In this document: positions 1,878-15,975 of the stretch, in pieces
How positions within the stretch are numbered: position 1 is the first letter of the stretch
Layout of the letters: each line of letters begins with the position of its first letter
From: Nitrospirota bacterium
Lineage (GTDB): Bacteria > Nitrospirota > UBA9217
Assembly: GCA_020052615.1 (NCBI GenBank)
Contig: JAGVOT010000060.1
Span: 1-54,425 of the forward strand
DNA length: 54,425 nucleotides
Direction: 5' to 3'
The notes under the pieces: generated by a model
The model's database searches: none
What the model was told of the DNA's origin: nothing
The model's input: the letters and a program-made list of their open reading frames with translations, nothing else
Position numbers and translations under genes: made by a program

Positions 1878-2025
1878 CAACGGCATCAGCCCGACGATCG
1901 TTCTGCGCGCACCCGGGGGTAAGCCCGAATCATTTAACAACCACTCAAAATACTTTTTCAACAGCCTGTTAACTCTCAGTCGGAGGTCTGTGCCCCGCAG
2001 GAAAAAATGGCTCAGCAATAGGGCT

Positions 2026-2085: not shown

Positions 2086-2107
2086 TTCGCCCCCCCCTTT
2101 TCCCCTC

Positions 2108-3544
2108 TTATCCCTCTACCCTCCGGAACACATCCTGCTTGATCCACAGCCAGAACAGGCTTTTGAGCCCCGTGAACGCCGCCCGCATGTCGGGAAGGCT
2201 CCTGATGCCCAGGACCCGCCGGACGAGGAACCGCGGCCGGGAATAGAACTTCTTGAAGGCGATCCGGCGGAGTTTGGCGATCTGGTCGCGTGTCATGGTG
2301 TAGGGCACGAAGGCCGCGCCCTGGTAGGTGTAGTCGGTGAGGTCGTTCGAGAGCGTTCCGTAGCGTTCGGCATGGTCATAGAGCTCGGCCCCGGGAAAGG
2401 GCGTGATGCAGTGGAAATTCGCCACGTCCGGATCGAGCTCGCAGGCGAACTCGATGGTCTGGAGCGCCTCTTCGTAGGTCTCGCCGGGTATGCCGACAAG
2501 GAACGGCGTGAGCACGCGGAGGCCCGCCTTCTTCGCCAGCCGCACTGCCGTACGGATCTGCTCAACCGTTGTCCCCTTCCTGATGGCGTTCAGGTTCTTC
2601 TGCACGCCGCTCTCCGCCCCCAGGAGGATCGCCCAGCACCCTGCGTCCTTGAACGCCCGCAGGAGCTCCCCGTCCACCTGGTTCACGCAGGCGGAGGCGA
2701 ACCAGGTGAAGTCGAGCTTCCTGCGCCTGATCTCCCTTGTCAGCGCCATGGCCCGGTCGCGGTCGGCTGCGAGCGTATCGTCGATGAACTTGATCTCGCG
2801 GTATCCCTGGGCCAGGCATTGCTCGATCTCCGCCATCACGTTATCGATGCTCCGGTACCTTATGCCGCTCGCCCGCTCCTTGTCCATCTGGAAGCAGTAG
2901 ATGCAGTGCCGGTTGCAGCCGCGCGAGGTCATGATCACGGCAACGGGTTTTCTCCGGTACGTGGCAGGCGGCGGAATGTACCTGTCCGCGTTGTCGAGCA
3001 GGTCCCGCGCGGGAAAGGGCAGCCTGTCCAGGTCCGTGATCAGGGGACGGGGAGGGTTCTTCGTGATACCCGCGCCCGTCCGAAAGACGACCCCCGGGAC
3101 ATCGGCAAGCCCGGCTTTCCGGCTAATCCGGTCGAGCATCTCCACCACGGTCAGCTCGCCCTCGCCCGTGACAACAGCATCGATCTCCGGCGCCTCCACA
3201 AGACACTTCTCCTGGACCGCGATCGGATAGGGCCCGCCCACGGCAATGAACGCACGTGGCAGGACGCGCCTGATCTCTCTTGCCGCCGCCTGTGCCTTGT
3301 TCCAGCCGAAAGCGGTGGAGTAGAGGCCTGCGAAGTCCGGGCAATGCGCTTTCACCCTGTCCAGGACCCCGGCGGCGGAGAGGAAAGCGCCGTTCAGGAA
3401 GATGACCTCGTGACCGGCCTGCCTGAGCGCGGCCGCAACGGAGAGCGTGCCGACCGGCTGCCAGTAGTTGATCTGGGCGGCAGCGGTCTTTGAGGGAAAG
3501 ATGTCTTCCGGCGTCCAGGAGGGAATGATGAGAGCGCATTTCAT
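2108..3544 (-). CDS. B12-binding-domain radical SAM protein
   Basis: Protein of 478 residues with an N-terminal cobalamin-binding-like Rossmann domain (about 1-140; PVGTLSVAAALRQAGHEV) and a central radical SAM domain whose cluster motif is SRGCNRHCIYCFQMD (CxxxCxxC). An E/GESG-type segment (LLGAESGVQ) and a helical C-terminal tail complete the class B methyltransferase/BchE-like layout. The family acts on tetrapyrroles, lipids, hopanoids and polyketides, and the substrate cannot be read from sequence. Its ATG overlaps the stop codon of the FAD oxidoreductase upstream (ATGA, 3541-3544), so the two are almost certainly translated together and probably act in one pathway. Confidence 0.88.
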   Translation of the reverse strand: MKCALIIPSWTPEDIFPSKTAAAQINYWQPVGTLSVAAALRQAGHEVIFLNGAFLSAAGVLDRVKAHCPDFAGLYSTAFGWNKAQAAAREIRRVLPRAFIAVGGPYPIAVQEKCLVEAPEIDAVVTGEGELTVVEMLDRISRKAGLADVPGVVFRTGAGITKNPPRPLITDLDRLPFPARDLLDNADRYIPPPATYRRKPVAVIMTSRGCNRHCIYCFQMDKERASGIRYRSIDNVMAEIEQCLAQGYREIKFIDDTLAADRDRAMALTREIRRRKLDFTWFASACVNQVDGELLRAFKDAGCWAILLGAESGVQKNLNAIRKGTTVEQIRTAVRLAKKAGLRVLTPFLVGIPGETYEEALQTIEFACELDPDVANFHCITPFPGAELYDHAERYGTLSNDLTDYTYQGAAFVPYTMTRDQIAKLRRIAFKKFYSRPRFLVRRVLGIRSLPDMRAAFTGLKSLFWLWIKQDVFRRVEG

Positions 3545-4980
3545 GACGAGGCCGCCCCTGCGAGCAGCTGCTCCCGCGCCGGCGCGGGCGCGGCGCGCAG
3601 TATCTCGTTCGCCGCGGCAATGCCCGATCCCATGGCATGGTCCATGTTGTGATACCGGAACATGCCTCCCCTGCCGATGACCTTGAGGTTCCGGAAGCGC
3701 CCCAGATAGTCAAGCACCGCGTCCGCATGCTCCCGGTAGTCGATTGTAAAGAGCGGATAGGCGCGCGGCACGCGCACCACGCAGGAGCCGATGACCTCGG
3801 CCCCGGTGATGAATCCCATGCGGCAGAGGTGCTTCACCGTCATGGCGGTGAGATCCTCGTCGCCGGCGCTCCAGATGCTGTCTCCCCGGAAGCAGAAATA
3901 TTCGGCCACAATGTGCGTCTTGCCCACGGGAGCCAAGGCGGGGCTCCAGTTCTTCGGCTCATGGATCCTGCCGAAGGGGATGGCCTGCTCGGGCAGGTAC
4001 ATCCAGGTGAGATCGGTCACCTGGTCGCGGTCGATCATGATCGTCGAGACGACCAGGTCGCGGTAGGCGAGCTTCGCCGCGGCCCGCCGGACCTCCTCGG
4101 GAGGCGCGGGACTAAGGCTGGCGAGCAGCGCCGTCAGCGGGATGCTCGATATATAGTCCCTGCCCGAGGCGTTGTACAGCTCCCGGCCCTGCCGGAGCAT
4201 CACGTTCGTGATGAAGGACCCGTCATGGTCGACCCGGCATACCCGCGTATCGGTCCGCACGCTGCTGCCGCTCTCGATCTCGCCCTGCAGCCGGTCGGCG
4301 ATCATACCGATCCCTTCCCGCGGGTAGAGGAACGTATCGGCCAGCGTGTGGATGTCGTTCCCGCGACCCTTCGTGAAGGCGTTCCTGATCGCTTCCCAGA
4401 GGGAGAGCCCCTCGATGCGGCGGGCGACCCACTCCGCGCCGATCTCCCGGCACCCGATGCCCCAGACCTTCTCGCTGTATTCCCGGAAGTACAGGTCGAA
4501 CATGGCGCGGCCGAAGCGGTTCACGACCCAGTCCTCCAGCGAGACGATGGGGGGACGGAAGAGCGCGCTCCGGATGTTCTGCGCGGCATAATCGGCCAGG
4601 ATGCGAGCGGTCGTGGGGAGGCCCATGCCGAAGACCGCGTTCACCGGCGTCAGGGGGTAATCGAAATACCTGCCCCGCATGTGGATCTGGCTCGTCCGCG
4701 GCACCTCAAGGCAGTCGTCCCCGAGGAGGACCCGGACAAAATCCTCGATGGCCCGGTCATGGGTGATGAACCGGTGGCCGCCGAGGTCAAAGCGGAACCC
4801 CTCATGCTCGATCGTCCGCGACAGGCCCCCGACAGCGGGGCCGGCCTCGACGACGGTAACGTTTTTGCCTGCTCTCGTGAGCACGCATCCTGCGGCAAGG
4901 CCCGCGAGCCCTGCGCCGAGTATCATGGTCTGGTCTGATGGGGTATGCATGACGATGTGGACCTTCGGAGCAGCACTCAC
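3541..4980 (-). CDS. NAD(P)/FAD-dependent oxidoreductase (protoporphyrinogen oxidase / amine-oxidase-like)
   Basis: Flavoprotein of up to 479 residues. A GxGxxG dinucleotide fold is near the N-terminus (MILGAGLAGLAAG), followed by VVEAGPAVGGLSRT and a second FAD contact RFDLGGHRFITHD, typical of the UDP-galactopyranose mutase/protoporphyrinogen oxidase/amine oxidase superfamily. Similar enzymes often sit in surface-polysaccharide or lipid-modification loci. An in-frame ATG at 4950 is an alternative start. The gene overlaps the following B12-radical SAM gene by four bases. A MITE-like repeat starts about 24 bp upstream of its start. Confidence 0.82.
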   Translation of the reverse strand: MSAAPKVHIVMHTPSDQTMILGAGLAGLAAGCVLTRAGKNVTVVEAGPAVGGLSRTIEHEGFRFDLGGHRFITHDRAIEDFVRVLLGDDCLEVPRTSQIHMRGRYFDYPLTPVNAVFGMGLPTTARILADYAAQNIRSALFRPPIVSLEDWVVNRFGRAMFDLYFREYSEKVWGIGCREIGAEWVARRIEGLSLWEAIRNAFTKGRGNDIHTLADTFLYPREGIGMIADRLQGEIESGSSVRTDTRVCRVDHDGSFITNVMLRQGRELYNASGRDYISSIPLTALLASLSPAPPEEVRRAAAKLAYRDLVVSTIMIDRDQVTDLTWMYLPEQAIPFGRIHEPKNWSPALAPVGKTHIVAEYFCFRGDSIWSAGDEDLTAMTVKHLCRMGFITGAEVIGSCVVRVPRAYPLFTIDYREHADAVLDYLGRFRNLKVIGRGGMFRYHNMDHAMGSGIAAANEILRAAPAPAREQLLAGAASS

Positions 4981-5003
4981 GACGCAAACGCAAGTCGTTT
5001 CGT

Positions 5004-5120
5004 TGTGTCGTCATTGCGAGCGACCGGAGGGAGCACGGCGATCTCGCCGTAAACCAGGGTGTGCTTCCCCCGCTTTTATCGTGCGGGGGCAGGCTTGCCT
5101 GCGCACGTCGCAATGACACA
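5004..5120. repeat. MITE/REP-like element with imperfect terminal inverted repeats
   Basis: Intergenic element of about 117 bp. Its left end is TGTGTCGTCATTGCGA (5004-5019) and its right end TCGCAATGACACA (5108-5120), reverse complements apart from a three-base gap. Inside is a second hairpin (CCCCCGC...GCGGGGG, about 5067-5088). The TCATTGCGAGCGA-type end is a word I associate with dispersed non-coding repeats in several GC-rich bacterial groups. No transposase is present. Confidence 0.6.
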
Positions 5121-5221
5121 GCGACAAGTGAGTTCCCATCGGCACTTTACCACGGAAGAGCAGGCGGGACGGCGACTCCGGCCGTGGCCGGGACCGTCGG
5201 GGAGACAGGCGGTCCGCTGGA

Positions 5222-5683
5222 CTACCGCGCGATCAGCACCGGGACCTCCGCCTGATTGGCGATCTCCCTGCTCACGCTGCCCATCATGAGCGTATGGAGC
5301 CTCCTGCCCCTCGATCCGACGATGATCATTTCCGCGCCTTCTTCCTTTGCCGCTGCGAGGACCTCATCGGCGGGATGCCCCTGCTTCACCACGGTCTTGA
5401 TGCCGGTGACGCCTTTTCGGACCAGTTCCTGCTGGTAATGCTCCAGAACGGCCCGGGCCTTCTTGTCGAGGGCGTCCTGGTATGCGGTTCCCTGCAGCTG
5501 TTCCTTCAGCGTGGACAGCTCGGCCATGCCCAGCATCTCGTCCATCAGGGATTTGCCCTCGATCTTCTCGACGTACAGCAGCACGACCGTTTCGGGCCGC
5601 GTGCAGGAAAAGAGTCCGGCGAAGGTATCGATGGTCGTCTGTGAGCCCTTGCTGTCATCGACGGCGATCAGAACTTTTTTCAT
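5222..5683 (-). CDS. Universal stress protein (UspA family)
   Basis: Single-domain USP of 153 residues. The N-terminus MKKVLIAVDDSKGS is the conserved beta1/ATP-site strand. The C-terminal VGSRGRRLHTLMMGSVS is close to the G-2x-G-9x-G(S/T) nucleotide loop but one residue short between the second and third glycines; ATP-binding status is therefore uncertain. It is the last gene of the tight run TusA, 61-residue membrane protein, 70-residue membrane protein, USP (gaps of 14-33 bp), so it is probably co-expressed with sulfur-carrier functions. No intrinsic terminator with a T-run follows it. Confidence 0.9.
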   Translation of the reverse strand: MKKVLIAVDDSKGSQTTIDTFAGLFSCTRPETVVLLYVEKIEGKSLMDEMLGMAELSTLKEQLQGTAYQDALDKKARAVLEHYQQELVRKGVTGIKTVVKQGHPADEVLAAAKEEGAEMIIVGSRGRRLHTLMMGSVSREIANQAEVPVLIAR

Positions 5684-5710
5684 CTCAGCTCCTTGGGATG
5701 ATCTTTCAGA

Positions 5711-5923
5711 CTACTCCGTGTCTTCCTTGTACAGGCTCTTGTAGTAATCCTGCGTCTTCGCATCGATGCCTTCAACGGAATCGCCGGTGCTGCCGTACCC
5801 GCCCGCTTCGGCGGATTCGAAATAGCCGACCTGCACCCCGCTTTTCGATGAAAGCGCATAGCCCGCCGTCGCCCCGACGATGCCGACAACTGCCGCAAGA
5901 AGGATCCAGAACCCTGTTTTCAT
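5711..5923 (-). CDS. Small single-pass membrane protein, paralogue of the 61-residue neighbour
   Basis: Protein of 70 residues with one N-terminal transmembrane helix (about 5-25, FWILLAAVVGIVGATAGYAL) and a short hydrophilic tail ending IDAKTQDYYKSLYKEDTE. The tail motif D-x-KTQ-x-YYK-x-L-x-KE is shared with the protein encoded at 5957-6142, and both start MK(T/S)xFWI, so the two genes are tandem paralogues. Nothing in the sequence identifies a known family. The position between TusA and USP suggests a membrane role linked to the sulfur transporter, perhaps as an accessory subunit; that is inference. Confidence 0.75.
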   Translation of the reverse strand: MKTGFWILLAAVVGIVGATAGYALSSKSGVQVGYFESAEAGGYGSTGDSVEGIDAKTQDYYKSLYKEDTE

Positions 5924-5956
5924 GCCCCTGCCTCCCCGAGATGAATGCCCGCCGCC

Positions 5957-6142
5957 CTACTCTTCCTTCAGCAGGTCCTTGTAATATTCCTGCGTCTTCG
6001 TATCGAGCTGCGCACCGGCCTTGACCTTGTTAGGCCCGCCGCCGATGATGCCGGCCTCGACGAACGGCGGCAGACTGTAGCCGATGAGGAATCCCGTGAA
6101 TCCCATCACGATGACCACCACGATCCAGAATGTGCTCTTCAT
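5957..6142 (-). CDS. Small single-pass membrane protein
   Basis: Protein of 61 residues: transmembrane helix at about 5-24 (FWIVVVIVMGFTGFLIGYSL), a proline/glycine linker (PPFVEAG, GGGPNK), then LDTKTQEYYKDLLKEE. The C-terminal motif repeats that of the neighbouring 70-residue protein. The gene starts 14 bp after the TusA gene and is preceded by a good ribosome-binding site (GGAGGCG). Function unknown; membrane topology with the charged tail on one face and co-transcription with TusA are the only clues. Confidence 0.75.
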   Translation of the reverse strand: MKSTFWIVVVIVMGFTGFLIGYSLPPFVEAGIIGGGPNKVKAGAQLDTKTQEYYKDLLKEE

Positions 6143-6157
6143 GGGACGTACGCCTCC

Positions 6158-6433
6158 TTACCGGGCCAGGGCGGCGACATCGGCCGTTTTCTTGATCTTC
6201 CACACGTACTTTCCGTTCGCCATGTTCTTTTCCACGATCTCATTTCCCTGGGCCTCGCACATCGCGGCGATCGACTCCGACGAGGAGGGGTTGTCAAAGA
6301 CCAGCTCGACAATGTCCCCGGTCTTCATCTTTTCGAGCGCCTTCTTCGTGTAGATCTGCGGGTGGGGGCATACGTATCCCGTTACGTCCAGCATAAAGAG
6401 CCCTTCCGTTTTTTTCTCGAATTTCATTGCCAT
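6158..6433 (-). CDS. TusA-family sulfurtransferase/sulfur carrier
   Basis: Protein of 91 residues with the TusA signature LDVTGYVCPHPQ: Cys22 is the persulfide-carrying residue, in the CPxP context of the family. TusA proteins relay sulfane sulfur between sulfurtransferases and acceptors in the cytoplasm. It follows the YeeE/YedE transporter gene (174 bp apart) as in known TsuA-TusA pairs, in which imported thiosulfate or other sulfur compounds are passed to TusA. The ATG is preceded by AAGGAGG at 9 bp. Unlike the TusA-like protein at 10909-11142, this copy keeps its cysteine. Confidence 0.92.
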   Translation of the reverse strand: MAMKFEKKTEGLFMLDVTGYVCPHPQIYTKKALEKMKTGDIVELVFDNPSSSESIAAMCEAQGNEIVEKNMANGKYVWKIKKTADVAALAR

Positions 6434-6561
6434 GGCTGTACCCTCCTTGTGAAGTTGATCAAAAACAAAGGCTTCAACGCTGAATTACGCTGATATACCT
6501 ATGATCTTTTATGAAGCAAGGCGTCAACAGCGTTCATCATAATTCGATCATATTTTTTCTG

Positions 6562-6590
6562 CGTTGAATGAACTGTTTGCTTGTTCAACG
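6562..6590. repeat. Perfect 7-bp inverted repeat between the transporter and TusA genes
   Basis: CGTTGAA (6562-6568) and TTCAACG (6584-6590) flank a 15-base loop in the 174-bp gap between the transporter gene end and the TusA start. Further copies of the word TTCAACGC/GCGTTCA occur at about 6475 and 6525, so the gap may carry a degraded short repeat or a processing hairpin. No T-run follows, so it is not a standard terminator. Confidence 0.4.
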
Positions 6591-6607
6591 TCCAGAATGA
6601 AAGTCCA

Positions 6608-8050
6608 TTACAGATCGAACGCCGCCATTTCCTTTGCCATCTGCCGCTCTGTCCACCAGTTGAAGAACTTGACGCCGATGTAGGCGCCGCCGATCATGCC
6701 GATGCCGAACAGCCAGCCCGACGCGTCTCCCAGGGCGACACGGGCGAAGAAGGCCCCGACGTTGCACCCGAGGCCCAGACGGGACCCGATCCCCATGAGC
6801 GCGCCCCCGACGATCGCCCAGACCGCGAGCTCTTTCGTGGGTTTTTTGAACTTGAACTCGTTGCTGAGCAGCGCCATCACTGCCGCTCCGCCGATCAGGG
6901 CGAGGGACATCCAGTCCGCCGGGTTGATGGCGGGATTGGGAATGCCGTTGTTCAGGCCGAAATAGATGTTGTCCATGTTGTCCCAGCCGAGCTTGTTGAA
7001 CACCCATCCTACCCACTGCGCTTCCTGGGTCGTCACGTACCAGTACCCGGGATCGAAGACCGTGCCCGAGACCGACAGGCCGAAATCGTGCCCCAACCTC
7101 GAGAGGAGCGTGCCGGCGTTCCTGACGCCGAATTTGATCCGCAGACCTTCGATCACGAGCATCTGGAGCCCGCAGGCAATGCCGAGGAACAATCCGGCGA
7201 GGGCCGTCCGTTTCGACGATGCGATCATGCCCCACCAGCCGAGAAGCTCTTCCGCAAAGGTCGCGCTTTTCCCTGCCTTGGCAAGCTTGTTCAAATGGTT
7301 CTTTCTGACCCAGAACAGATACACGACCACCAGCAGCACCGCCGCGGGGAGCACGACGCCGACCAGGAAGTCGCCGAGGAACGCCCCCGCGAACGAAGCG
7401 TCCTTGAGCCCGAGCATTTCGGAGAACTTCACGATCGGCTGGTTCCATATGTAGCCGGCGAGATACTGGTCCACCCACCCGTCACCGGCGTTGATGGCCG
7501 CGGGCAGCTTCTTTGCCAGGGCCGACTCGTGCCAAGACTGGGGCACGAGCCTGTTGAACCATCCGCCGATGTCCACGAACGTCGCCTGGGTGATGCTGAT
7601 CGACAGCACCACGAGCAGGGACACGCCGTTGCCCTCGCCGGTCTTGTACAGGGAGCCCGAAGCGCAGCCGCCGGCGAAGACCATCCCGACGCCGAAGACG
7701 AGCCCCGCGATGGTCGCGGCGATGCTGGTCGGAGCGGCATGGAACGTGCTCATGCCCGTTGCGGTCACGAAGGCGGAGACGAAACTGAACAGGATCGTGG
7801 CGATCATGATGCCGACCACCATGCGGGGCACTCCCACCGCGAAGAGGTCCCTGAACGCCGAGGCGAAACAGAACCGGCCGTACTGCAGGCACATGCCGTA
7901 GATAAAACCGAACCACAAGTAGGCCGAGATGTAGATGTAGTACTCATGGACGGCAAAGCTCAGAATGCTGACCAGGATAAGGAACCCGACGATGCCCAGT
8001 GCCCAGCGCTGGTTCTTTGCTTCCCTCATTGTCGCCTCGTTCATTTCCAC
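6608..8050 (-). CDS. YeeE/YedE-family (TsuA-like) sulfur-compound transporter
   Basis: Polytopic inner-membrane protein of 480 residues related to the thiosulfate transporter TsuA. Diagnostic segments are QYGRFCFASAFRD near residue 60, GGCASGSLYKTGEG in the centre and GLGCNVGAFFARVALGD near the C-terminus. These conserved Cys-containing loops form the substrate relay in the structurally known family member. At least nine hydrophobic helices are visible. The start is a GTG at 8050 with AGGAGG seven bases before it; ATG 8044 is an alternative. A sigma-54 promoter (8124-8139) and an activator palindrome (8183-8206) lie upstream. TusA and the small membrane proteins follow. Confidence 0.92.
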   Translation of the reverse strand: MEMNEATMREAKNQRWALGIVGFLILVSILSFAVHEYYIYISAYLWFGFIYGMCLQYGRFCFASAFRDLFAVGVPRMVVGIMIATILFSFVSAFVTATGMSTFHAAPTSIAATIAGLVFGVGMVFAGGCASGSLYKTGEGNGVSLLVVLSISITQATFVDIGGWFNRLVPQSWHESALAKKLPAAINAGDGWVDQYLAGYIWNQPIVKFSEMLGLKDASFAGAFLGDFLVGVVLPAAVLLVVVYLFWVRKNHLNKLAKAGKSATFAEELLGWWGMIASSKRTALAGLFLGIACGLQMLVIEGLRIKFGVRNAGTLLSRLGHDFGLSVSGTVFDPGYWYVTTQEAQWVGWVFNKLGWDNMDNIYFGLNNGIPNPAINPADWMSLALIGGAAVMALLSNEFKFKKPTKELAVWAIVGGALMGIGSRLGLGCNVGAFFARVALGDASGWLFGIGMIGGAYIGVKFFNWWTERQMAKEMAAFDL

Positions 8051-8123
8051 CTCATGACCTCCTGGCTGCTGTTTTCTTTTGTTCCCGTCCCGGTACGCTT
8101 CTTACGTGAGTCGCTGATCTATC

Positions 8124-8139
8124 TGCAAGGATGTTGCCA
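8124..8139 (-). promoter_or_regulatory. Sigma-54 (-24/-12) promoter of the transporter unit
   Basis: Reading the minus strand, TGGCAA-CATCC-TTGCA fits the TGGCAC-N5-TTGCW consensus with one change. It lies 74 bp before the transporter start and 47 bp downstream of the palindrome at 8183-8206. The sequence GGTTAG just before it is shared with the second sigma-54 promoter in the window. Confidence 0.75.
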
Positions 8140-8182
8140 TGTCTAACCGTCGAATATTTCGATGATTCTCCGGTCCGCCCGG

Positions 8183-8206
8183 GGAACCCTGTCCCGAACA
8201 GGACAG
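8183..8206 (-). promoter_or_regulatory. Putative sigma-54 activator binding site (UAS) for the transporter unit
   Basis: On the minus strand the core reads TGTCCTGTTCGGGACAGGG, an inverted repeat CCTGT-N5-ACAGG with a conserved GTTCC extension. The same element occurs at 11272-11296 at nearly the same distance from another -24/-12 promoter (47 versus 49 bp), which supports its being an enhancer site. The obvious candidate activator is the NtrC-type regulator at 14617-15975; binding is inferred. Confidence 0.65.
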
Positions 8207-8217
8207 CAAGGGGAAGG

Positions 8218-9924
8218 CTATTGTGCTGTTTCGGACATGCAGGTCCTCCGGAAGAGGGTGACAAATATTTTATACTTGAACACCCCCGTCGATGACTCGA
8301 ACCGCCGCACCGGATTTGGATCGACCCGGTCACGATCGATGCCGGGCGGAAGGATACCAAGAGGTTCGCCGGAAAGGACCGCGACCGGCGGGCAATCGTC
8401 GGGCACGCCTTCATTGTAGAATGCCGGCAGCCTGACCTCCCAGGTGAACCGGAGCGACGACTGCGCGATGGACCCCTGCTCCGGCAGGGCCGCGGGCGGC
8501 GTTCGATAGCGTACTCTTTTTTTCGTGAAGAGGTCGAGGAGCGGGACCGCCATTTCCGTATTGCCCGCTGACCGCGGCTGCGGCAGGGCGTAGACCTCCA
8601 CGTCGCCGCCGTCCAGGGTGTCAAGATAGCTGCCGGCATCGCGGAGATTGACGAGGCTCATCCTCTCCAGGAACGGCCCATAGGCGCCCAGGGCGATCAC
8701 CAGCGACGTGGTCACGCCGCACCAGACGATGAATTGCCGCACCCCGCGGTCCCTTGCTTCCTGGATCCCGTAGGAAGCCATAAGGGCGAAGAGCGGGGCC
8801 AGGGGGAGAAGATACCGTATCCGTTCATGGTGGAGGAAGACCGCGAAGACCGCGGACCACGCGGGAACCAGAAAGCGCGCATCTCTCCTCCTGACCGCGG
8901 CCGCGATGCCGACGACGGCGGCAGCGGTCAGGAACGGATGGGTTTGAAAGAGAACGGTCGACAAAAAGCCCTCCTGCCATCGCTTGAGACCTTCCGACTG
9001 ATAGGTGAAAAGCAGACGCACCTGCTCCCTGATGACGTCATACTGTGAAAAAAGGACGGCGAGGGACAGCACCCCTGCCCCCGCAAGGACCGCTGCCGCG
9101 CGCGCGATGACCACGCGCCGGTCGTTCCTTGACGGAACGATGATGAGGATGATCAGAAGGGGAAACAGCAGGATCGCTGCGGAATATTTGGAGAAGAGGC
9201 TTAAGAACAGCGCAAGGCAGGCGCCGGATATCCGGGGCAGCCCCCCCCGTTCGATGGCGCCCTGATAGGTGTAGATGGCGAGCGTAATGAAGAACATGGC
9301 CGGGACATCGGCCAGCATGAGGGGTACCTGCGTAAGAAGGTACGGCATTCCCAGAAGCAGGAGGCCCGCGGCCGTCCCGGTCTCGCGGTTCCAGAGCGTC
9401 CTGCCGATATGATAGGTCAAGAGGACGGTGAGGGAAAAAAGGAGGGTCGTAAATGCCTGGATGAACAGGCGCGATTCGCCGAGATACCGGAACAGGAGGC
9501 CGTACAGGAAGGGCACGACGGGAAGGTCCGTCCATGCCCCGATCGCCCCGCCCCATTCCCGGAAAAAGGAGGATATCCCGTAAAGCTCCAGGTGCTTTGC
9601 CTGAAGGAAGTACCGCGAGGCGTCGATGATCACCTCCGGCCCCCCCCAGAGCGGAAGGACCGCGAGGAACGCGAGGAGCGGCAGAAGCACAGCGGGAGCG
9701 CGGTCAAGGAGGGTGCTGCGGGAGAGAATAAATGAGGCGATGATGCCGAGCGCGATGAACGAATAGACCCGCCCGGCGGCCGCGCCGGGGAGGATCCAGT
9801 TCCAGTTCGTGAGCGCGTTATCGTCGAGAGAGCGTCCGATCACGAGCAGGGGCACGGCGAGGAGCGCCGCGAACGCGGTGAGCAGCAAGGCATCTGTTCT
9901 CTCCGGTCTTGTCACCGGTCGCAT
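8218..9924 (-). CDS. GT39-like membrane glycosyltransferase (ArnT/PMT superfamily)
   Basis: Integral membrane protein of 568 residues with about 11-13 hydrophobic helices in the first 400 residues and a soluble C-terminal domain (about 400-560). The first extracytoplasmic loop contains acidic residues (IIDASRYFLQAKHLELYG...GGAIGAWTDLPVVPFLYG), the arrangement of polyprenyl-phosphate-sugar-using GT-C enzymes, and the helix with LMLADVPAMFF is typical of the PMT_2 family. It would transfer a sugar from a lipid carrier on the periplasmic side. Its place inside the sulfur island, 60 bp after the DsrE-like gene, is unexpected; co-transcription is likely but a functional link is not evident. Confidence 0.85.
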   Translation of the reverse strand: MRPVTRPERTDALLLTAFAALLAVPLLVIGRSLDDNALTNWNWILPGAAAGRVYSFIALGIIASFILSRSTLLDRAPAVLLPLLAFLAVLPLWGGPEVIIDASRYFLQAKHLELYGISSFFREWGGAIGAWTDLPVVPFLYGLLFRYLGESRLFIQAFTTLLFSLTVLLTYHIGRTLWNRETGTAAGLLLLGMPYLLTQVPLMLADVPAMFFITLAIYTYQGAIERGGLPRISGACLALFLSLFSKYSAAILLFPLLIILIIVPSRNDRRVVIARAAAVLAGAGVLSLAVLFSQYDVIREQVRLLFTYQSEGLKRWQEGFLSTVLFQTHPFLTAAAVVGIAAAVRRRDARFLVPAWSAVFAVFLHHERIRYLLPLAPLFALMASYGIQEARDRGVRQFIVWCGVTTSLVIALGAYGPFLERMSLVNLRDAGSYLDTLDGGDVEVYALPQPRSAGNTEMAVPLLDLFTKKRVRYRTPPAALPEQGSIAQSSLRFTWEVRLPAFYNEGVPDDCPPVAVLSGEPLGILPPGIDRDRVDPNPVRRFESSTGVFKYKIFVTLFRRTCMSETAQ

Positions 9925-9984
9925 CCCTTCGCCAAAGTCCGTCGCCGCCCGCGCGAGAGGGGGGTTCGGAGCGCGGTCCCGCCG

Positions 9985-10287
9985 TCACAGGACAATGACC
10001 TTGTCCGCCTCGTGCAGCATCGTCGCGTTGTCATACTGGCTGCCGCGCACCACTGCTCCCGGTATGGCGTCAAGGGGAACGCCGAGCCCCTGTGCGCTGT
10101 GCTCGCAGAAGCTCATGACGATCGTTTGTCGCTCCGACAGCTCCCGCACCTCCGGCCGGGTCAACAGGAGCGTTCCCGCGTCCATGACGAAAATGCCGAC
10201 CTCATACCCCCGGGCTGTCGCCGCGGCGGTGATCCCGGCCATGGCATCAGGGTGGTGGTCCGTCGTAACGAGTATTCCCAGTTTCAT
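9985..10287 (-). CDS. DsrE-family protein
   Basis: Protein of 100 residues with the DsrE/F-like fold pattern: MKLGILVTTDHHPDA start, a central VGIFVMDAGTLLL strand, and Cys61 in MSFCEHSAQGLGVP, the position of the sulfur-carrying cysteine in TusD/DsrE proteins. Ends ATMLHEADKVIVL as many DsrE proteins do. Probably a cytoplasmic persulfide carrier acting with the TusA proteins of the island. Third small protein after the 90- and 55-residue ones, in one apparent operon from the sigma-54 promoter at 11212-11227. Confidence 0.85.
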   Translation of the reverse strand: MKLGILVTTDHHPDAMAGITAAATARGYEVGIFVMDAGTLLLTRPEVRELSERQTIVMSFCEHSAQGLGVPLDAIPGAVVRGSQYDNATMLHEADKVIVL

Positions 10288-10327
10288 GTCAGCCTGCCCC
10301 CCTGTCTGAAGCGTCCCCTGGTCCCTG

Positions 10328-10495
10328 CTACCAGGAAATGACGCTGTCGCTCGAGAAGATCAGCTCGACGATCTTGTCGTAGTCCTTGTCGGTGCGAAGA
10401 TCCACCACCGTGACCGCATGGTCCTGCTTCTGGGCATCCAGGACCCCGCTGATGGTCGCGTCAGGGTCCTTCCTCATGAGACAGAGAATGTTCAT
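10328..10495 (-). CDS. Mini DsrH/TusB-like protein (55 residues)
   Basis: Short gene of 55 codons: start ATG at 10495 with AAGGAG eight bases upstream, stop TAG at 10328. It begins MNILCLMRKDPDATISG, has a predicted alternating strand/helix pattern, and ends YDKIVELIFSSDSVISW. The ending resembles TusB/DsrH proteins, which finish with an aromatic-rich V(I/Q)SW; the usual family length is about 95, so this would be a shortened form. The single Cys is Cys5. It lies 24 bp after the 90-residue gene and 40 bp before the DsrE-like gene, which supports a DsrEFH-like trio. The assignment rests on this weak similarity and on context. Confidence 0.6.
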   Translation of the reverse strand: MNILCLMRKDPDATISGVLDAQKQDHAVTVVDLRTDKDYDKIVELIFSSDSVISW

Positions 10496-10519
10496 ACTGT
10501 CGTCTCCTTCGCGACCTGG

Positions 10520-10792
10520 TCAATAGGCCAGGATATGGTCATAGCCGGGAAGCCGCCTCACGAGCTCTTCGGTCGAGCAGAATTCCAGGTCCGCGTTCTC
10601 CGGAACATTCGTCCAGATGCGCATATCGAGGTCCCGCAGGGTCTCGATGTTCAGGGTGTTCCCTTCGGTCTCCTCGACCTTCCGGCCCAGCACATACACG
10701 TCGATCACGTCGTCCCGGAGCGTGGCCCCCACGGCCATCCGGAGCGCCTCCTCCTGCCGTTCCCGAACCAGCACCGCGATCTTTTTAGCCAT
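10520..10792 (-). CDS. DsrE/F-like small protein
   Basis: Protein of 90 residues: MAKKIAVLVRERQEEALRMA start, a DVYVLGR strand, and Cys72 in ADLEFCSTEELVRR, ending YDHILAY. The layout (N-terminal VLV strand, helix, DVYVL strand, C-terminal hydrophobic strand) matches the DsrE/DsrF superfamily, but no signature is strong. Its position between the TusA-like and the DsrH-like genes supports a role in sulfur relay. Preceded by a 116-bp gap that contains a strong hairpin (10853-10874). Confidence 0.65.
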   Translation of the reverse strand: MAKKIAVLVRERQEEALRMAVGATLRDDVIDVYVLGRKVEETEGNTLNIETLRDLDMRIWTNVPENADLEFCSTEELVRRLPGYDHILAY

Positions 10793-10852
10793 GGCATCCT
10801 CGCTGACTTCTTCCCGCCGTGGTCCTCGTCCGGGGTGTCAGATGATAATGGT

Positions 10853-10874
10853 CCGGCATCCCGGAGGATGCCGG
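10853..10874. other. Hairpin between TusA-like and DsrE/F-like genes
   Basis: CCGGCATCC (10853-10861), loop CGGA, GGATGCCGG (10866-10874): a perfect nine-base-pair stem with a four-base loop inside the operon. There is no T-run on either side, so an RNA-processing or stability role is more likely than termination. Confidence 0.5.
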
Positions 10875-10908
10875 AGAATCCCGGAAGGGGATCGGGGGAG
10901 AGTCGATC

Positions 10909-11142
10909 TCAAGAGCATTTTTGGATCGTGAAATAGATCGTTCGGCCCTGCACGGTCGTTTCAAGCAGGGCGTAGCCATGCCGCGCGCAAAGCGCGGGGA
11001 CGCTTTCCCTGGCGCCGGCGTCGTTCGTGATAACCGAGAGGACCTGTCCCGGGCCGAGCTGGTTCATGGTCATCTCGATCACGATCGCCGGCCGGGGCTG
11101 CACCAAGCCTTTGATATCAAGGGTCTTGTCCGCCTGTGCCAT
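10909..11142 (-). CDS. TusA-like protein lacking the catalytic cysteine
   Basis: Protein of 77 residues with TusA layout: LDIKGLVQPRPAI, then PGQVLSVITNDAG, VPALCARHGYAL and a final YFTIQKCS. In TusA the motif reads GLxCPxP; here Gln15 takes the place of the persulfide cysteine. Cys52 (where TusA has its second conserved cysteine) and a near-terminal Cys76 remain. It may act as a non-catalytic scaffold or use another cysteine. The frame is open to 11256 (TTG) but the sigma-54 promoter at 11212-11227 lies inside that extension, so ATG 11142, or GTG 11163, is the likely start. First gene of the DsrE-like operon. Confidence 0.75.
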   Translation of the reverse strand: MAQADKTLDIKGLVQPRPAIVIEMTMNQLGPGQVLSVITNDAGARESVPALCARHGYALLETTVQGRTIYFTIQKCS

Positions 11143-11211
11143 GAGCAACCCCGTTTTGTTCACTGCTCGTCCGTCCCGCCCATCCACCCGGTGGCCTTTC
11201 ACCCTCTGCGT

Positions 11212-11227
11212 AGCAAGGGCGGTGCCA
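11212..11227 (-). promoter_or_regulatory. Sigma-54 (-24/-12) promoter of the TusA-like/DsrE-like operon
   Basis: The minus strand reads TGGCAC-CGCCC-TTGCT, a perfect match to the TGGCAC-N5-TTGCW consensus with the invariant GG and GC. Transcription would begin near 11200, some 60 bases before ATG 11142. The activator palindrome lies 49 bp upstream, and GGTTAG occurs just before the -24 box as in the other unit. Confidence 0.82.
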
Positions 11228-11271
11228 AAGCCTAACCAGCCGATAAATTTGAACAAGGCAGTTTTTCTTTT

Positions 11272-11296
11272 GGAAACCCTGTTCCAAACAGGACAT
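11272..11296 (-). promoter_or_regulatory. Putative sigma-54 activator binding site (UAS)
   Basis: Minus-strand core TGTCCTGTTTGGAACAGGG, an inverted repeat CCTGT-N5-ACAGG followed by GTTTCC. It matches the site at 8183-8206 at all but two core positions, and both changes (T/C and A/G) keep the palindrome. It sits in the 235-bp divergent region between the sulfur operon and the PhnD-kinase-activator operon. The stretch between it and the -24 box is AT-rich (AAAAGAAAAA, CAAATTTAT), as expected for a bent or IHF-bound spacer. Confidence 0.68.
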
Positions 11297-11342
11297 CGGC
11301 GAAGCAGCCATTGTCCCGATCGCTCCAGGGAGCCCTAATCTG

Positions 11343-11372
11343 TTGCATTCTTCGCACGGTCCCGCGTATAAT
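11343..11372 (+). promoter_or_regulatory. Sigma-70-type promoter of the PhnD-like gene, possibly leaderless
   Basis: TTGCAT (11343-11348), 18 bp, then a perfect TATAAT (11367-11372). Transcription would start six to seven bases later, at or next to the ATG at 11378, and no Shine-Dalgarno sequence precedes that ATG, so the mRNA may be leaderless. Confidence 0.55.
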
Positions 11373-11377
11373 AGCAT

Positions 11378-13027
11378 ATGAAGCGCCCGTTCCTCCTCGT
11401 TTTGGCCGCGGCATCCTTGTTCTGCTCCCCGGCAGCGGCCGCTTCCCCGGGGAATCCGCCCTCCGGACCGGCGGCGTCGAATGCCCCTCCCCCGCTTGTC
11501 TTCGTCATATTGCCCGTCGAAAATCCGAGCGTCGTTTATGAGAAGTTCCTGCCGCTCAAGGAATATCTTGAAAAGGCGATCTCCCGGACGATCGTCCTGC
11601 GGATTGCCCGGGATTACCAGGAGGCGATCCACGCGATCGGCACCGGCAGTGCGCATCTTGCCTATCTCGATCCTTCGGCCTACTGCGAAGCGCGCTTTCT
11701 GCACCGCGTCGTCCCGCTGGTCAAAACGATACGGAACGGGTCTCCGACCTATCGCAGCGTACTCGTTGCGCGGAGCGATTCGGGGATCCACAAGATCATT
11801 GAGGCCAAGAACAAGCGCATCGCCTTCGGCAATAACAGCTCGTCCTCGTCCTATCTCATCCCCGCCGTCATGTTCAAGGAAGTGGGGATCGGCCTCTCGT
11901 CGTTCGCGACCGTCGATTTTCTCGAACAGGAAGACCGGATCGCGCTTTCGGTCCTGGCAAAACGCCACGATATCGGCGGCATGAGCGAACGCGTCGCGAA
12001 AAAATACCTCGGCGACGGCCTCTCGATCATCAATGTATCCGAACCCATCCCCCAGTACGCGCTCAGCGCCTCCGCGGGGCTGCCGGCCGCCCTTCGGAAG
12101 AGCATCCGCAGGGCATTGTTGTCGATCGGAAAGGGCCGCGATCCGGCCCTGATCGCGGCCATGAAGGACATCGACGGCTTCGCGCCGGTGGAAGACCGGG
12201 AGTTCGATGTCGTGCGGGTGATGATCAAGAACCTCACGGGGAAGAACTACCTCTCCTATCCGAAGAACGTGATCAAGGTCGCCATTCTCCCGCTCTACTC
12301 GGCGATCACGCTCTTTGAACGCTTCGATCCGCTCATGCGGTATCTCTCGGAACGGACCGGCCGCGAGTTCAAGCTCGTGATCCCGAAGGACTTCGAGGAC
12401 TTCTTCGCCATCATCGAGCGCGGAGACGCCGATTTCTCCTACTCGAACCCCTATATCTACATCCAGCTTGCCAACCGGGGCCTCCTGACGGCCTTTGCCA
12501 ACACGGTCCTGGAGGAAACGGGCGACATCTTTCGCGGGATCATCATCACCCATCGGGACAGCCCGATCCAGACCGTCGAGGACCTCAAGGGGAGGGATGT
12601 GATGGTCGTTTCCTACCGGTCGGCCGGAGGCTTCCTGGCCCAGAGGCTCTTTCTGTCGGAAAGCGGCATCGACGTCTTCAGGGACCTGAAGCTTCGGGAA
12701 GGGAAACGGCAGGAAACGGTCATCCTGAACGTCTACCGCGGGACGGCGGACGCGGGATTCGTGCGGGAATCAGCGCTCGATGTGCTCCGCGAAGAGATCG
12801 ACCTGAGCAGGGTCCGCGTGCTCGCCCGGACGCCCTACATCCCGAACTGGCCCTTCGCCGCCACGAAACGGGCGGACGGGGATCTCACGGCGCAGGTGCA
12901 GCAGGCCCTCACGGAGCTCGCGGACCGCAGGGTGCTGACCGCCGCCCGCGTGCGCGGCTTCAAGATAGCGGACAACAGGGACTTTGACGATCTGCGGGAA
13001 TGGATCGACCGGAAAACGCATGAATAA
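11378..13027 (+). CDS. Tandem PhnD-domain periplasmic binding protein
   Basis: Protein of 549 residues with a signal peptide (LLVLAAASLFCSPAAAA, cleavage near residue 22) and two consecutive phosphonate/phosphite-type (PhnD) solute-binding domains, about 38-285 and 300-540. Each begins with a beta strand (VFVILPVENPSVVYEKFLPL; VAILPLYSAITLFERFDPLM) and has the Y(L/S)xPxxY pocket strand (AYLDPSAYCEA; FSYSNPYIYIQ). There is no ABC transporter nearby; instead a histidine kinase and a sigma-54 activator follow, as for the arsenite sensor AioX-AioS-AioR, so a sensory rather than transport role is likely. The ligand is unknown but could be a sulfur oxyanion. Its stop overlaps the kinase start by 8 bases. 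Confidence 0.88.
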   Translation: MKRPFLLVLAAASLFCSPAAAASPGNPPSGPAASNAPPPLVFVILPVENPSVVYEKFLPLKEYLEKAISRTIVLRIARDYQEAIHAIGTGSAHLAYLDPSAYCEARFLHRVVPLVKTIRNGSPTYRSVLVARSDSGIHKIIEAKNKRIAFGNNSSSSSYLIPAVMFKEVGIGLSSFATVDFLEQEDRIALSVLAKRHDIGGMSERVAKKYLGDGLSIINVSEPIPQYALSASAGLPAALRKSIRRALLSIGKGRDPALIAAMKDIDGFAPVEDREFDVVRVMIKNLTGKNYLSYPKNVIKVAILPLYSAITLFERFDPLMRYLSERTGREFKLVIPKDFEDFFAIIERGDADFSYSNPYIYIQLANRGLLTAFANTVLEETGDIFRGIIITHRDSPIQTVEDLKGRDVMVVSYRSAGGFLAQRLFLSESGIDVFRDLKLREGKRQETVILNVYRGTADAGFVRESALDVLREEIDLSRVRVLARTPYIPNWPFAATKRADGDLTAQVQQALTELADRRVLTAARVRGFKIADNRDFDDLREWIDRKTHE

Positions 13028-14636
13028 ACTTGGCCTGGGGCTGAAATTCTCGCTTGCCGTCACCATGCTGATCGTGCTGACCATGACCGTGGTCGCCACC
13101 CTGGTCATCAGCAACCAGCGGGAGGCGCTGCGGGAGAACACCGCGCAAAGCAACCTGTCGATGACCCGGAACCTCGCGCACGACGCCGAGGGGCCGATGC
13201 TCGTATTCGACCCGCTGCGGCTCGACGAGCTGGTCACCACCGTCCTGGACGCCACGGCCTGCTCCTATGCGATGGTCACGGACCGGGACGGGCGCATCGT
13301 CGCTCACACGAAGCGCCGCATGATCGGCAGCCTGGCGCGGCAGGCGGAGGGTGACGGCCCCGCGGGCCGCACCCTTCCCGTCGGGGAGATCATTCGGGAG
13401 CGCCTCATCGACGGCGTGCAGGTCAAGGAGTTCACGGTCCCGATCACCATCGGCTCGGAGACTCTGGGCGCGGCGACGATTGCTTACTCGGCACGGGGGA
13501 CCGATACGGCGATCGAACGGGACCTCGCGAAGCTGCGGCGGTCCATCGTGTTCATCACCGGCGTCGTCCTCCTTTTCGGCGTTGTCGGCGCCTTTGCGGT
13601 TTCCTCCGTCATGACGCGGCCGATCACGCGGCTCAAGCAGAAGATGCAGGATGTCCAGGCAGGCAACCTGAACGCCGAGGTGGAGAACCCCCGCATCGTC
13701 ACCTGCCGGGAGCGGCTGAACTGCCGCAAGACGGACTGTCCCGCGTACGGCAAGCCCCGGTGCTGGGCCGTTGCCGGCACCTTCTGCCACGATACGGTGC
13801 AGGGCCAGTTCGCCCAGAAGATCGGCGACTGCCGAAAGTGCGTCGTATACCGGGAATCGTGCGGCGATGAGATCGGGGAGCTCGTGGAGGTCTTCAACCA
13901 GATGGTGAAGGACCTCCGGTACAACCTTTCGGAGCTGGAGAAGGTGAACACCGAGAAGTCCCGGATGGAGCGGCTTTCCGCCCTCGGCGAGATGGCATCC
14001 ACCGTGGCGCACGAGACGAAGAACCCTCTCAACTCCATCCGCCTCGCGACATCCTACCTCAAGAAGAACTTCCAGGGCGAGATCCTGACCGAGTTCCTGG
14101 AGATCATCGAACAGGAGGTGGCCCGGCTCAACGAACTGACCTCCGGCTTCCTCGGGTATTCGAAGCCCGCGCCGCTCAAGCTCAAGCCCTGCGACATAAA
14201 CGCCGTCATCCGGTCGACCGTGGATCTCGTCCGTCAGGATGCCACGGACCGGAACATCGAGCTGGTCGTGCTGACCGATGATCACGCGCCCCCGGTGGGA
14301 TGCGACATCTCCCAGATCAAGCAGGCGCTCCTGAACCTGCTGATAAACGCCATGGACGCGTCGGCCGCGGGCAGCGCCATCACGGTCACGACCGAATCGG
14401 CGGACCGCCGCATCCGGATCTCGGTGCAGGACACGGGGGCGGGCATACCGCAGGACGAGATTGAAAATATCTTCAAACCGTTCTATACTACAAAGACCCG
14501 CGGCGCGGGTCTCGGGCTCGCGATCGTCGAGCGGATCGTGAAGGAGCACGGCGGAGAGATCCGCGTAGTGAGCAGCCGGGGAAAGGGGACGACGTTTACC
14601 ATCGACCTGTCGGCACATGCCTATGCAAAACCATAA
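13020..14636 (+). CDS. Membrane sensor histidine kinase with eight-cysteine module
   Basis: Kinase of 538 residues. TM1 is at about 7-31, a periplasmic sensor region at 32-170, TM2 at about 175-199, then HAMP. Directly after HAMP comes a cysteine-rich insert with Cys229, 235, 240, 248, 256, 271, 274 and 281 (DCPAYG, RCWAVAGTFC, GDCRKCVVYRESC), probably a metal or redox site. The phospho-acceptor is His331 in STVAHETKNPLNS, followed by HATPase_c with N (NLLINAMDAS), G1 (DTGAGIP) and G2 (GAGLGLAIV) boxes. The frame opens at 12984 but ATG 13020, overlapping the PhnD gene end, gives the normal N-terminus. Overlaps the response-regulator gene by 20 bases. Confidence 0.92.
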   Translation: MNKLGLGLKFSLAVTMLIVLTMTVVATLVISNQREALRENTAQSNLSMTRNLAHDAEGPMLVFDPLRLDELVTTVLDATACSYAMVTDRDGRIVAHTKRRMIGSLARQAEGDGPAGRTLPVGEIIRERLIDGVQVKEFTVPITIGSETLGAATIAYSARGTDTAIERDLAKLRRSIVFITGVVLLFGVVGAFAVSSVMTRPITRLKQKMQDVQAGNLNAEVENPRIVTCRERLNCRKTDCPAYGKPRCWAVAGTFCHDTVQGQFAQKIGDCRKCVVYRESCGDEIGELVEVFNQMVKDLRYNLSELEKVNTEKSRMERLSALGEMASTVAHETKNPLNSIRLATSYLKKNFQGEILTEFLEIIEQEVARLNELTSGFLGYSKPAPLKLKPCDINAVIRSTVDLVRQDATDRNIELVVLTDDHAPPVGCDISQIKQALLNLLINAMDASAAGSAITVTTESADRRIRISVQDTGAGIPQDEIENIFKPFYTTKTRGAGLGLAIVERIVKEHGGEIRVVSSRGKGTTFTIDLSAHAYAKP

Positions 14637-15975
14637 GATACTGATCGTCGATGATGAGAAGAACATTCTGCGCGTCGTCTCCACGACGCTCAAGGGCGAG
14701 CATTACGACGTCACCACGGCCCAGTCGGCCGAAGAGGCCATCGAGAAGTTCGGCCGCGGCGGCTTCGACCTGGTGATCACGGACCTCAAGCTTCCGGGCC
14801 AGAGCGGCCTGGACCTCCTCTCCTACGTGAAGGCGCGGGAGCCGGACATGCCGGTCATCATGATCACCGCCTTCGGCACGATCGAGAACGCCGTCGGCGC
14901 GATGAAGCGGGGCGCCTTCAATTACCTGACCAAGCCGGTGAATCCCGACGAGCTGCTGACCGTGGTGCGCGAGGCCGTGGAAAAATTCGAGCTCAAGCGG
15001 GAGAACCGTTCACTGAAATCCGAGCTCAGGCAAAAATACGCCTTCGGAAGCATCATCGGGAAGAGCGTGGTCATGCAGGAGGTCTTCGATACGATCCGCA
15101 TGGTGTCGAAGACCCAATCCAGCATCCTGGTCCTCGGCGAAAGCGGGACCGGCAAGGAGCTTGTCGCCCGGGCCATCCATTACGAGTCCGACCGCGCGGA
15201 GCGCCCCTTTGTCACCATTGACTGCGCCACGATCCCCTCGGAGATCATGGAAAGCGAGCTCTTCGGCCACGAAAAAGGGTCCTTCACGGGGGCGCATGAG
15301 CGCAAGGTCGGCCTGCTGGAGCAGGCGGACAGCGGAACGGTGTTCCTCGACGAGATCGGCGAGATCGACCTGCAGCTCCAGAAGAAGCTCCTGCGCTTCC
15401 TCCAGGAGCGGGAGATCCTTCGCGTCGGCGGTTCGGCGCGGATCAAGCTCAACATACGCATCGTTGCGGCGACGAACAAGGACCTGGAGCACGAGGTCCG
15501 GGAAAGGCGCTTCCGCGAGGACCTGTTCTACCGTTTGAACGTCGTCGCCATCAAGATGCCGCCGCTCCGGGAGCGCAAGGACGACATCCCGCTCCTGGTC
15601 CAGCATTTCCTCGAAAAACTGAATCAGATCGAGGGACGGATGATCGGCGGGTTCGAGGACACGGCAATGGAGGCAATGCTCGCCTACGACTGGCCGGGAA
15701 ACGTGCGGGAGCTGGAGAACGCGATCGAGCGGGCCTACATCCTCTGCCCTTCCATCACCATCGGCCTCAAGCACCTGCCCACCAAGATCGTGGCCCTGGC
15801 CCGGAGCGAGCGGGACCCCATCGACGAGATGAACCTCCTGGAGACCGAAAAGCGGCTGATCGTCCGCGCCCTGACCAATGTCTCGTGGAACCAGAGCAAG
15901 GCCGCCGAGGTCCTGGGGATCACCCGGAAACAGCTCAGGACGAAGATGAAGAACCTCGATCTGCTGCCGGAATAA
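14617..15975 (+). CDS. NtrC-family sigma-54-dependent response regulator
   Basis: Activator of 452 residues: receiver domain (1-120) with phospho-acceptor Asp56 (VITDLKLP), AAA+ domain (about 143-380) with Walker A GESGTGKE (174-181), Walker B region VFLDEIGE, arginine-finger region [11 protein letters not shown], and a Fis-type HTH at about 425-447 ([18 protein letters not shown]). The sigma-54 contact loop reads GSFTGA (221-226) rather than GAFTGA, an Ala-to-Ser change. The upstream kinase is its cognate partner by overlap. The two sigma-54 promoters with shared palindromes in the neighbouring sulfur island are its likely targets. ATG 14623 is an alternative start. Confidence 0.93.

Follow-up and report, generated by a model that had tools for sequence, protein, structure and literature searches.

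A probable TspS/TspR-like sigma-54 circuit with a tandem operator at sulfur import and relay genes of Nitrospirota

A contig of a Nitrospirota bacterium (lineage UBA9217; GenBank assembly GCA_020052615.1, contig JAGVOT010000060.1, positions 1 to 54,425; all 54,425 nucleotides are referred to here as the window) carries two sigma-54-type promoters, P1 and P2, upstream of genes for sulfur import and relay (tusA- and dsrE-like genes behind P1, yeeE and tusA behind P2). Divergent from P1 lies an operon encoding an exported protein with two PhnD-type domains (PhnD2), a histidine kinase and an NtrC-type response regulator. An earlier note on this DNA proposed that a palindrome shared by both promoters makes them a regulon of this neighbouring regulator. 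Do these elements form a circuit, who operates it, and does it exist elsewhere? We found that the arrangement is real, conserved and functionally coherent, and that its target set is wider than in the known system and partly new. The regulatory kind is already known from the TspS/TspR system of Acidithiobacillus caldus; new are its phylum-wide reach, the targets, a phased tandem operator, the PhnD-type partner and a cysteine-rich kinase segment. Probably, a TspS/TspR-like sigma-54 two-component system together with a presumably periplasmic PhnD-type protein switches on the sulfur import and relay genes.

Both -24/-12 boxes were found by pattern match on the minus strand, TGGCAACATCCTTGCA for P2 (8139-8124) and TGGCACCGCCCTTGCT for P1 (11227-11212); the P2 box is kept upstream of YeeE in relatives. 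The shared palindrome was also there: CCTGTTCGGGACAGG (8188-8202) and CCTGTTTGGAACAGG (11278-11292) are the window's only zero-mismatch matches to this 15-mer. The differences between the copies had been said to preserve the dyad; each copy does pair at six of seven positions, but a different pair is broken in each. The hexamer GGTTAG stands 5' of both -24 boxes in the window but was not seen in the promoters of relatives that we inspected. Loose matches of either element alone are not above chance in the window. If three mismatches are allowed, the 15-mer occurs 10 times, whereas shuffled sequence gives 5.0 on average and reaches 10 in 6 of 100 cases; if two are allowed, the -24/-12 pattern occurs 13 times, fewer than the 19.35 expected from shuffles. 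What exceeds chance is the combination of the elements and its conservation.

The 15-mer did not prove to be the operator frame, since relatives conserve the 16-mer TGTCC-N6-GGACA instead. This is the constant part across orthologous loci, where it often forms paired dyads 31-32 bp apart. As a search key, the slightly widened 15-mer was rejected: it matched in 8 of 61 genomes, mostly in unrelated places and, outside the window, never adjoining a sigma-54 box. The 16-mer core combined with a sigma-54 box was found in 7 of the 61 genomes, and its reversed control in 0. Further conserved copies, which the earlier note had proposed to look for in this genome and in relatives, thus exist, built on the 16-mer core. 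In the window, P2 has an exact proximal dyad, TGTCCTGTTCGGGACA (8190..8205, minus strand), starting 66 bp before the -24 box, and 32 bp further upstream a distal dyad with one mismatch, TGTCCGAAACAGCACA (8222..8237, minus strand), which overlaps the 3' end of a glycosyltransferase gene. At P1, the proximal dyad TGTCCTGTTTGGAACA (11280..11295, minus strand; one mismatch) starts 68 bp before the box, and the distal site TGGAGCGATCGGGACA (11312..11327, minus strand; three mismatches, one good half) again lies 32 bp further upstream.

In an ortholog set of 16 loci (249 kb), three of which had originally been found via the motif, the exact 16-mer occurred 19 times; 20 mononucleotide shuffles averaged 0.25. 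The loci intended as controls (290 kb) contained six exact cores. Two of these loci, L105 from a Desulfohalobiaceae bin and L106, carry tandem dyads by a distant PhnD2-kinase-regulator operon and a TauE gene; these loci therefore cannot serve as a clean negative. The dyad pair of L105 had no strict sigma-54 box nearby. No exact dyad was detected at the YeeE homologues (56-72% identity) of the seven loci L080-L086; six of these come from genomes without a PhnD2 orthologue, and L085 holds the second YeeE of genome G001, which has PhnD2.

The window's own genome contains a third site (G000:C82:961-1032), where an exact dyad 57 bp before TGGCACTTCTATTGCA is accompanied by a weaker copy 32 bp upstream. 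The genes behind it encode an exported protein that has two rhodanese domains, and a YeiH-type protein (PF03601); in genome G007, a site lies immediately upstream of YeiH. A looser composite pattern gave five matches in the window's genome and one in its reversed control; those on contigs C76 and C112 look like chance and were rejected. We also set aside as doubtful the composite matches in G011 (L077, 78 bp, before a two-CW protein) and G042 (L078).

To define the reach of the operator, we scanned 395 Nitrospirota genomes. The exact tandem operator is present in 13 of them, at 15 places (14 distinct, as one site lies on two overlapping contigs), with 0 in the reversed control. Four places precede YeeE, four (three sites) adjoin a rhodanese and five precede a TauE-PhsA-like operon; of the remaining two places, one is at a contig end after the regulator, and the other separates the regulator gene from a nuo operon. 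With the relaxed tandem TGTNC-N6-GNACA, the scan yielded 38 genomes (52 places), again with 0 in the reversed control. At 43 of the 52 places, a sulfur gene within 1.5 kb points away from the site (YeeE, TusA, DsrE, rhodanese, YeiH, TauE/Phs-type or Sox-linked). Positions drawn at random from these stretches have such a gene in 33.8% of cases (binomial 5e-13), and this control is conservative because the stretches were fetched around the sites. Three of the 43 assignments (two L180 sites and one in L045) rest on a thioredoxin-like protein labelled SoxW, for which there are only sub-cutoff thioredoxin matches; in L180, SoxY, SoxZ and SoxA follow it. Tandem sites precede sox-linked genes in G089, G009, G012 and G145, and SoxB, SoxY, SoxZ and SoxA of L180, L206 and L195 score over the NCBIfam cut-offs. 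For the PhsA-like proteins of L103 and L105, the NCBIfam PhsA model is the best match, below its cut-off.

Nine relaxed places have no sulfur gene by this rule. The contig of L127 ends right after the regulator, and L128 is the same site as L129, which has a rhodanese. At L131, a universal stress protein gene and a PhnD-type gene come first and TauE-PhsA after them; at L132, a nuo operon lies by the regulator. L183 and L184 have GT2 glycosyltransferase and radical SAM genes at the site, and a distant YeeE-type gene, outside the rule, is present at L187 and L192. L207, with a BlaI-type neighbour and a regulator of 41% identity, is probably a chance match. As a separate observation, the operator-bearing TauE-PhsA-PsrB-like operons of L130, L131 and L132 continue into nuo (complex I) genes in genomes that are Thermodesulfovibrio-like (the genus is our guess), hinting at a sulfur enzyme that feeds complex I.

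The spacing of the dyads is itself informative. In the ortholog set, 15 of the 20 pairs (each copy with up to two mismatches, spacing 16-80) are 31 or 32 bp apart. At 30 other spacings, the relaxed tandem was found in 28 genomes (reversed control, 8). Fifteen of these cases are pairs of TGTTCCACGTGGAACA, one with one altered base, a 16-mer that we take to be parS-like; of the 13 others, 6 have a spacing of 33 bp, and a doubled exact core was seen in none. Thus 31-32 bp, and less so 33 bp, is a preferred spacing. A relaxed dyad lies within 130 bp of 44 of the 68 distinct strict sigma-54 boxes in the examined loci. The nearest dyad starts at 55-60 bp (n = 16), 65-70 bp (n = 19), 78-79 bp (n = 2), 100-101 bp (n = 2), 112-114 bp (n = 3), 121 bp (n = 1) or 48 bp (n = 1). 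These distances step by about one helical turn, with a best period of 11.0, and 0 of 20,000 uniform simulations reached the value observed at 10.5. As many of the promoters are orthologous, the phasing is indicative rather than a strict test.

The operon that divides from P1 encodes PhnD2 (11378..13027, plus strand), the histidine kinase (13020..14636, plus strand, ATG at 13020 in a reading frame open from 12984) and the regulator (14617..15975, plus strand). PhnD2 has a signal-peptide-like start and two PF12974 stretches, and no permease gene is among its annotated neighbours; it is better read as a sensor, presumably periplasmic, than as an importer. The earlier note had given this operon control over the import and relay of a sulfur compound; of this reading, a sulfur regulon under sigma-54 beside its probable activator is retained. 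The kinase consists of sCache_3_2, HAMP, HisKA and HATPase_c domains, with a segment between HAMP and HisKA in which seven cysteines are invariant in 14 aligned orthologues. Scored alone, this segment narrowly exceeds the cut-off of 35 of the NCBIfam two-CW model, with 35.9 bits. That its role concerns redox state or sulfane sulfur is a guess, and nothing relevant to the two-CW segment was found among open-licence PMC papers. The regulator has a receiver, a sigma-54 AAA+ and an HTH_8 domain and is the proposed binder of the dyads.

A sigma-70-like element, TTGCAT-N18-TATAAT (11343..11372, plus strand), ends 5 bases before the ATG of PhnD2. TATAAT has exactly this position in five of the 12 close orthologues (the window, region 11343-11380, and L041, L043, L044 and L045), similar AT-rich boxes were seen by eye in six more, and L090 is unclear. 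The sensor operon may be leaderless.

Which protein reads the operator? PhnD2 (E ≤ 1e-90) is present in 12 of the 13 genomes with the exact tandem, compared with 43 of all 395 (hypergeometric 7e-12, kinship ignored), and in 23 of the 38 with the relaxed tandem. Several genomes have a relaxed site but no PhnD2, and beside that site a regulator of 50-58% identity. This suggests that the regulator, and not PhnD2, is the constant partner. Regulators of loci that bear the operator have nearly the same DNA-binding region, whereas it differs in the L046/L047 paralogues, at which no exact dyad lies. Regulators of 50% identity or more are near 22 of the 52 relaxed places; among 933 plasmid records, the best-ranked match to the window regulator showed 45.2% identity.

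It is nevertheless conceivable, though unlikely, that the dyads are true sigma-54 enhancers of a sulfur regulon bound by an NtrC-family regulator encoded elsewhere, and that the adjacent pair has other targets. At only 22 of the 52 relaxed places does the fetched stretch hold a regulator with 50% identity or more within 10 kb, and many genomes encode several regulators of this family. Against this stand the co-occurrence of the operator with the PhnD2-kinase-regulator genes, their adjacency in the window and in relatives, and the precedent of TspR, whose activator sequence has the same core. There is only a slim chance that the dyads serve the adjacent regulator chiefly for repression or autoregulation of its own divergent operon, with a secondary effect at P1 and P2. 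The P1 distal half-site (11312-11327) is separated by 15 bases from the TTGCAT that follows it in the sensor operon's promoter, as such autoregulation would have it, but P2, the third site of this genome and most sites of relatives are away from the sensor operon, and the dyads hold helical register with the sigma-54 box. That two promoter-like sequences arose and came to share the palindrome by chance is hardly credible given its conservation, its spacing and the controlled phylum scans, even though neither element by itself, when matched loosely, exceeds chance in the window.

Our preferred explanation, activation by the adjacent TspS/TspR-like system, would work as follows. A reduced sulfur compound (thiosulfate is the published candidate for TspS) would be bound by PhnD2, the Cache domain of the kinase, or both, and the kinase would phosphorylate the NtrC-type regulator. 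The latter would bind a pair of TGTCC-N6-GGACA dyads, spaced by some three helical turns, and drive sigma-54 polymerase at P1, P2 and the third promoter of this genome (rhodanese, YeiH-type). YeeE would then import, TusA1 would accept sulfane sulfur, and the DsrEFH-type-II-like set would pass it on, probably to the Dsr pathway. The binding protein, the signal and the direction of sulfur flow are what we infer from genes and sites.

Several observations weigh against this explanation. The distal P1 site of the window is half a dyad only. Even with two mismatches allowed, P1 of L093, P1 of L098 and the TGGCATTATCCTTGCT box of L045 had no dyad beside them. The centres of the window dyads differ from the A. 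caldus sequence. PhnD2 was not found at the E ≤ 1e-90 threshold in 15 of the 38 relaxed-site genomes, which indicates that it is not required; conversely, 20 of the 43 PhnD2 genomes lack the relaxed tandem, among them G001, G005 and G013, which have single dyads only. The L104 regulator keeps the DNA-binding region, yet L104 has no exact dyad. As for the signal, PMC10318464, in the parts consulted, names sulfide stress rather than thiosulfate for TspS.

The targets in the window are arranged in two groups on the minus strand, each of which, from gene order and strand, is presumably co-transcribed. P1 is followed by TusA2 (10909..11142, ATG at 11142), a 90-amino-acid protein (10520..10792), a 55-amino-acid protein (10328..10495), a DsrE-like protein (9985..10287), recognized by profile match and alignment, and a PMT_2-type membrane glycosyltransferase (8218..9924), which lies between the DsrE-like gene and P2. 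Downstream of P2 are the YeeE/YedE-type sulfur transporter (6608..8050; PF04143) and TusA1 (6158..6433), then a universal stress protein (5222..5683), also found downstream of TusA1 in several relatives, and two further enzymes on the same strand. The genome also encodes DsrA and RpoN, both over the model cut-offs, and in L093, L097 and L101 a rhodanese or YeiH was found close to the regulator or to YTD genes (YTD, yeeE-tusA-dsrEFH type II).

TusA1 has an intact CPHP motif, and Cys61 of the DsrE-like protein is conserved in 6 of 6 aligned proteins; judged from sequence, these two are the likely sulfur carriers. The CPxP cysteine is missing in all nine aligned TusA2-type proteins (rows L097 and L101 were set apart, as a TusA1-type protein had been picked there as the best match); TusA2 is therefore probably no carrier itself. 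A cysteine-less TusA2 at the head of a dsr-like operon is perhaps a structural or regulatory partner. The predicted structure of the 90-amino-acid protein (predicted local distance difference test score, 90.6) has a DsrE/DsrF fold and resembles YchN (1jx7_A; Z 11.6, root-mean-square deviation 2.4, 89 aligned) and 2hy5_B of DsrEFH (Z 9.2, deviation 2.3, 88 aligned). The model of the 55-amino-acid protein has its best Z, 5.9, with unrelated folds and matches 2hy5_B with Z 4.5 (deviation 1.9, 55 aligned); the protein remains a candidate DsrH-like subunit. Foldseek alone gave no match at E ≤ 0.001 for either model. With yeeE, tusA and three DsrEFH-like genes in synteny, the third being this candidate, the window has a YTD-type set.

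Other elements were seen around such genes. Glycan/lipid-type genes (PMT_2 glycosyltransferase, GT2, radical SAM/SPASM, B12-radical SAM and an NAD(P)-binding FAD-type enzyme) accompany yeeE-tusA and rhodanese genes in the window (166-9924) and in L122, L124, L128, L183, L184 and L191. In L182, L185 and L186, which belong to one family, mirror-image dyads (TGTCC..GCACA / TGTGC..GGACA) lie 32 bp apart beside a TusA-like gene, in L185 and L186 between this gene and a related kinase-regulator pair. Four genomes of one genus (G192:C1:34510, G176:C22:98089, G090:C56:14896 and G389:C16:50939) have a distinct element of 55 bp, in which two dyads of the TGTTC-N6-GAACA type lie at a distance of 39 bp.

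YTD genes have been argued to mark sulfur oxidation or disproportionation where Dsr is of the reductive type. To our knowledge, nobody can tell from sequence which compound they serve. Given a candidate regulator and a scannable operator, it can now be asked without culture which genes are switched together with them. Tentatively, Dsr- and Sox-bearing bacteria might share a three-part sulfur sensor, in which PhnD2 reports an external sulfur oxyanion, the seven-cysteine, cytoplasmic segment of the kinase reports internal sulfane sulfur or redox state, and one tandem operator code decides the turn to sulfur oxidation or disproportionation in Dsr-bearing Nitrospirota.

How does the circuit compare with known systems? 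In the tetrathionate kinase TtrS, a PhnD-type domain serves as a sensor of sulfur oxyanions. PhnD2 matches the TtrS model (NF040750) weakly (48 bits, cut-off 750), and unlike in TtrS the PhnD domains form a separate tandem protein and the regulator is of the NtrC type. In the open-licence PMC literature, which is no proof of absence, we found no paper joining PhnD, a histidine kinase, sigma-54 and TusA, none joining YTD with two of the topics disproportionation, two-component systems and sigma-54, and no TspS in Nitrospirota/Nitrospirae among the 15 matches listed of 23.

According to the parts of PMC13293266 considered here (abstract, Results and Discussion, which do not treat its regulation), the YTD set relays sulfur towards DsrC; its hosts are mainly Desulfobacterota and Nitrospirota, and it is proposed there as a marker of sulfur oxidation capacity. 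The window agrees with it in gene content, in the active cysteine of DsrE and in belonging to a main host group. Unlike the published set, it splits the genes over two promoters, with a cysteine-less TusA first and a PMT_2 glycosyltransferase in between.

The closest known system is TspS/TspR of A. caldus (PMC6335251, PMC12194929, PMC5093147 and PMC10318464, each compared in part), so that the earlier note's remark of knowing no description of this circuit does not hold for its kind. Before sox-II of A. caldus, phosphorylated TspR binds the activator sequence TGTCCCAAATGGGACA, and thiosulfate is a potential TspS signal (PMC6335251). P2 of the window shares 10 of the 10 core bases of this sequence and P1 9 of 10; the 16-mer occurs verbatim in eight relaxed-site loci, one Nitrospirota genome each, though not in the window. 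TspS has the layout sCache_3_2-HAMP-HisKA (PMC12194929), and by Pfam domains the window kinase and NtrC-type regulator match the description of TspS/TspR there. As the TspR type requires, a -24/-12 promoter lies downstream of the core dyad at both P1 and P2, and rpoN is in the genome. From the operator core and the domain layout, we class the circuit as TspS/TspR-like; sigma-54, the NtrC-type regulator, the kinase domains, the core and sulfur-compound targets are common to both. Unlike in TspS/TspR as described, the targets are yeeE-tusA-dsrEFH-II, rhodanese and YeiH in the window's genome, and TauE-PhsA-type operons and, in four genomes, sox in relatives. No sox genes lie beside the window system, which adjoins YTD-type genes; in G145 (L195), a regulator of 53% identity and a tandem site lie beside soxA and soxB. 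TcsS/TcsR of Acidithiobacillus ferrooxidans, orthologous to TspS/TspR, is an alike system with different sulfur genes, tetH-doxDA, beside it (PMC12194929), which shows that the target genes are not constant. The tandem-PhnD partner, the seven-cysteine kinase segment and the tandem dyads 31-32 bp apart are features of the system presented here that go unmentioned in the consulted parts of the TspS/TspR accounts. The operator known from Acidithiobacillus is hereby extended to a second phylum and perhaps, with the Desulfohalobiaceae locus L105, to a third.

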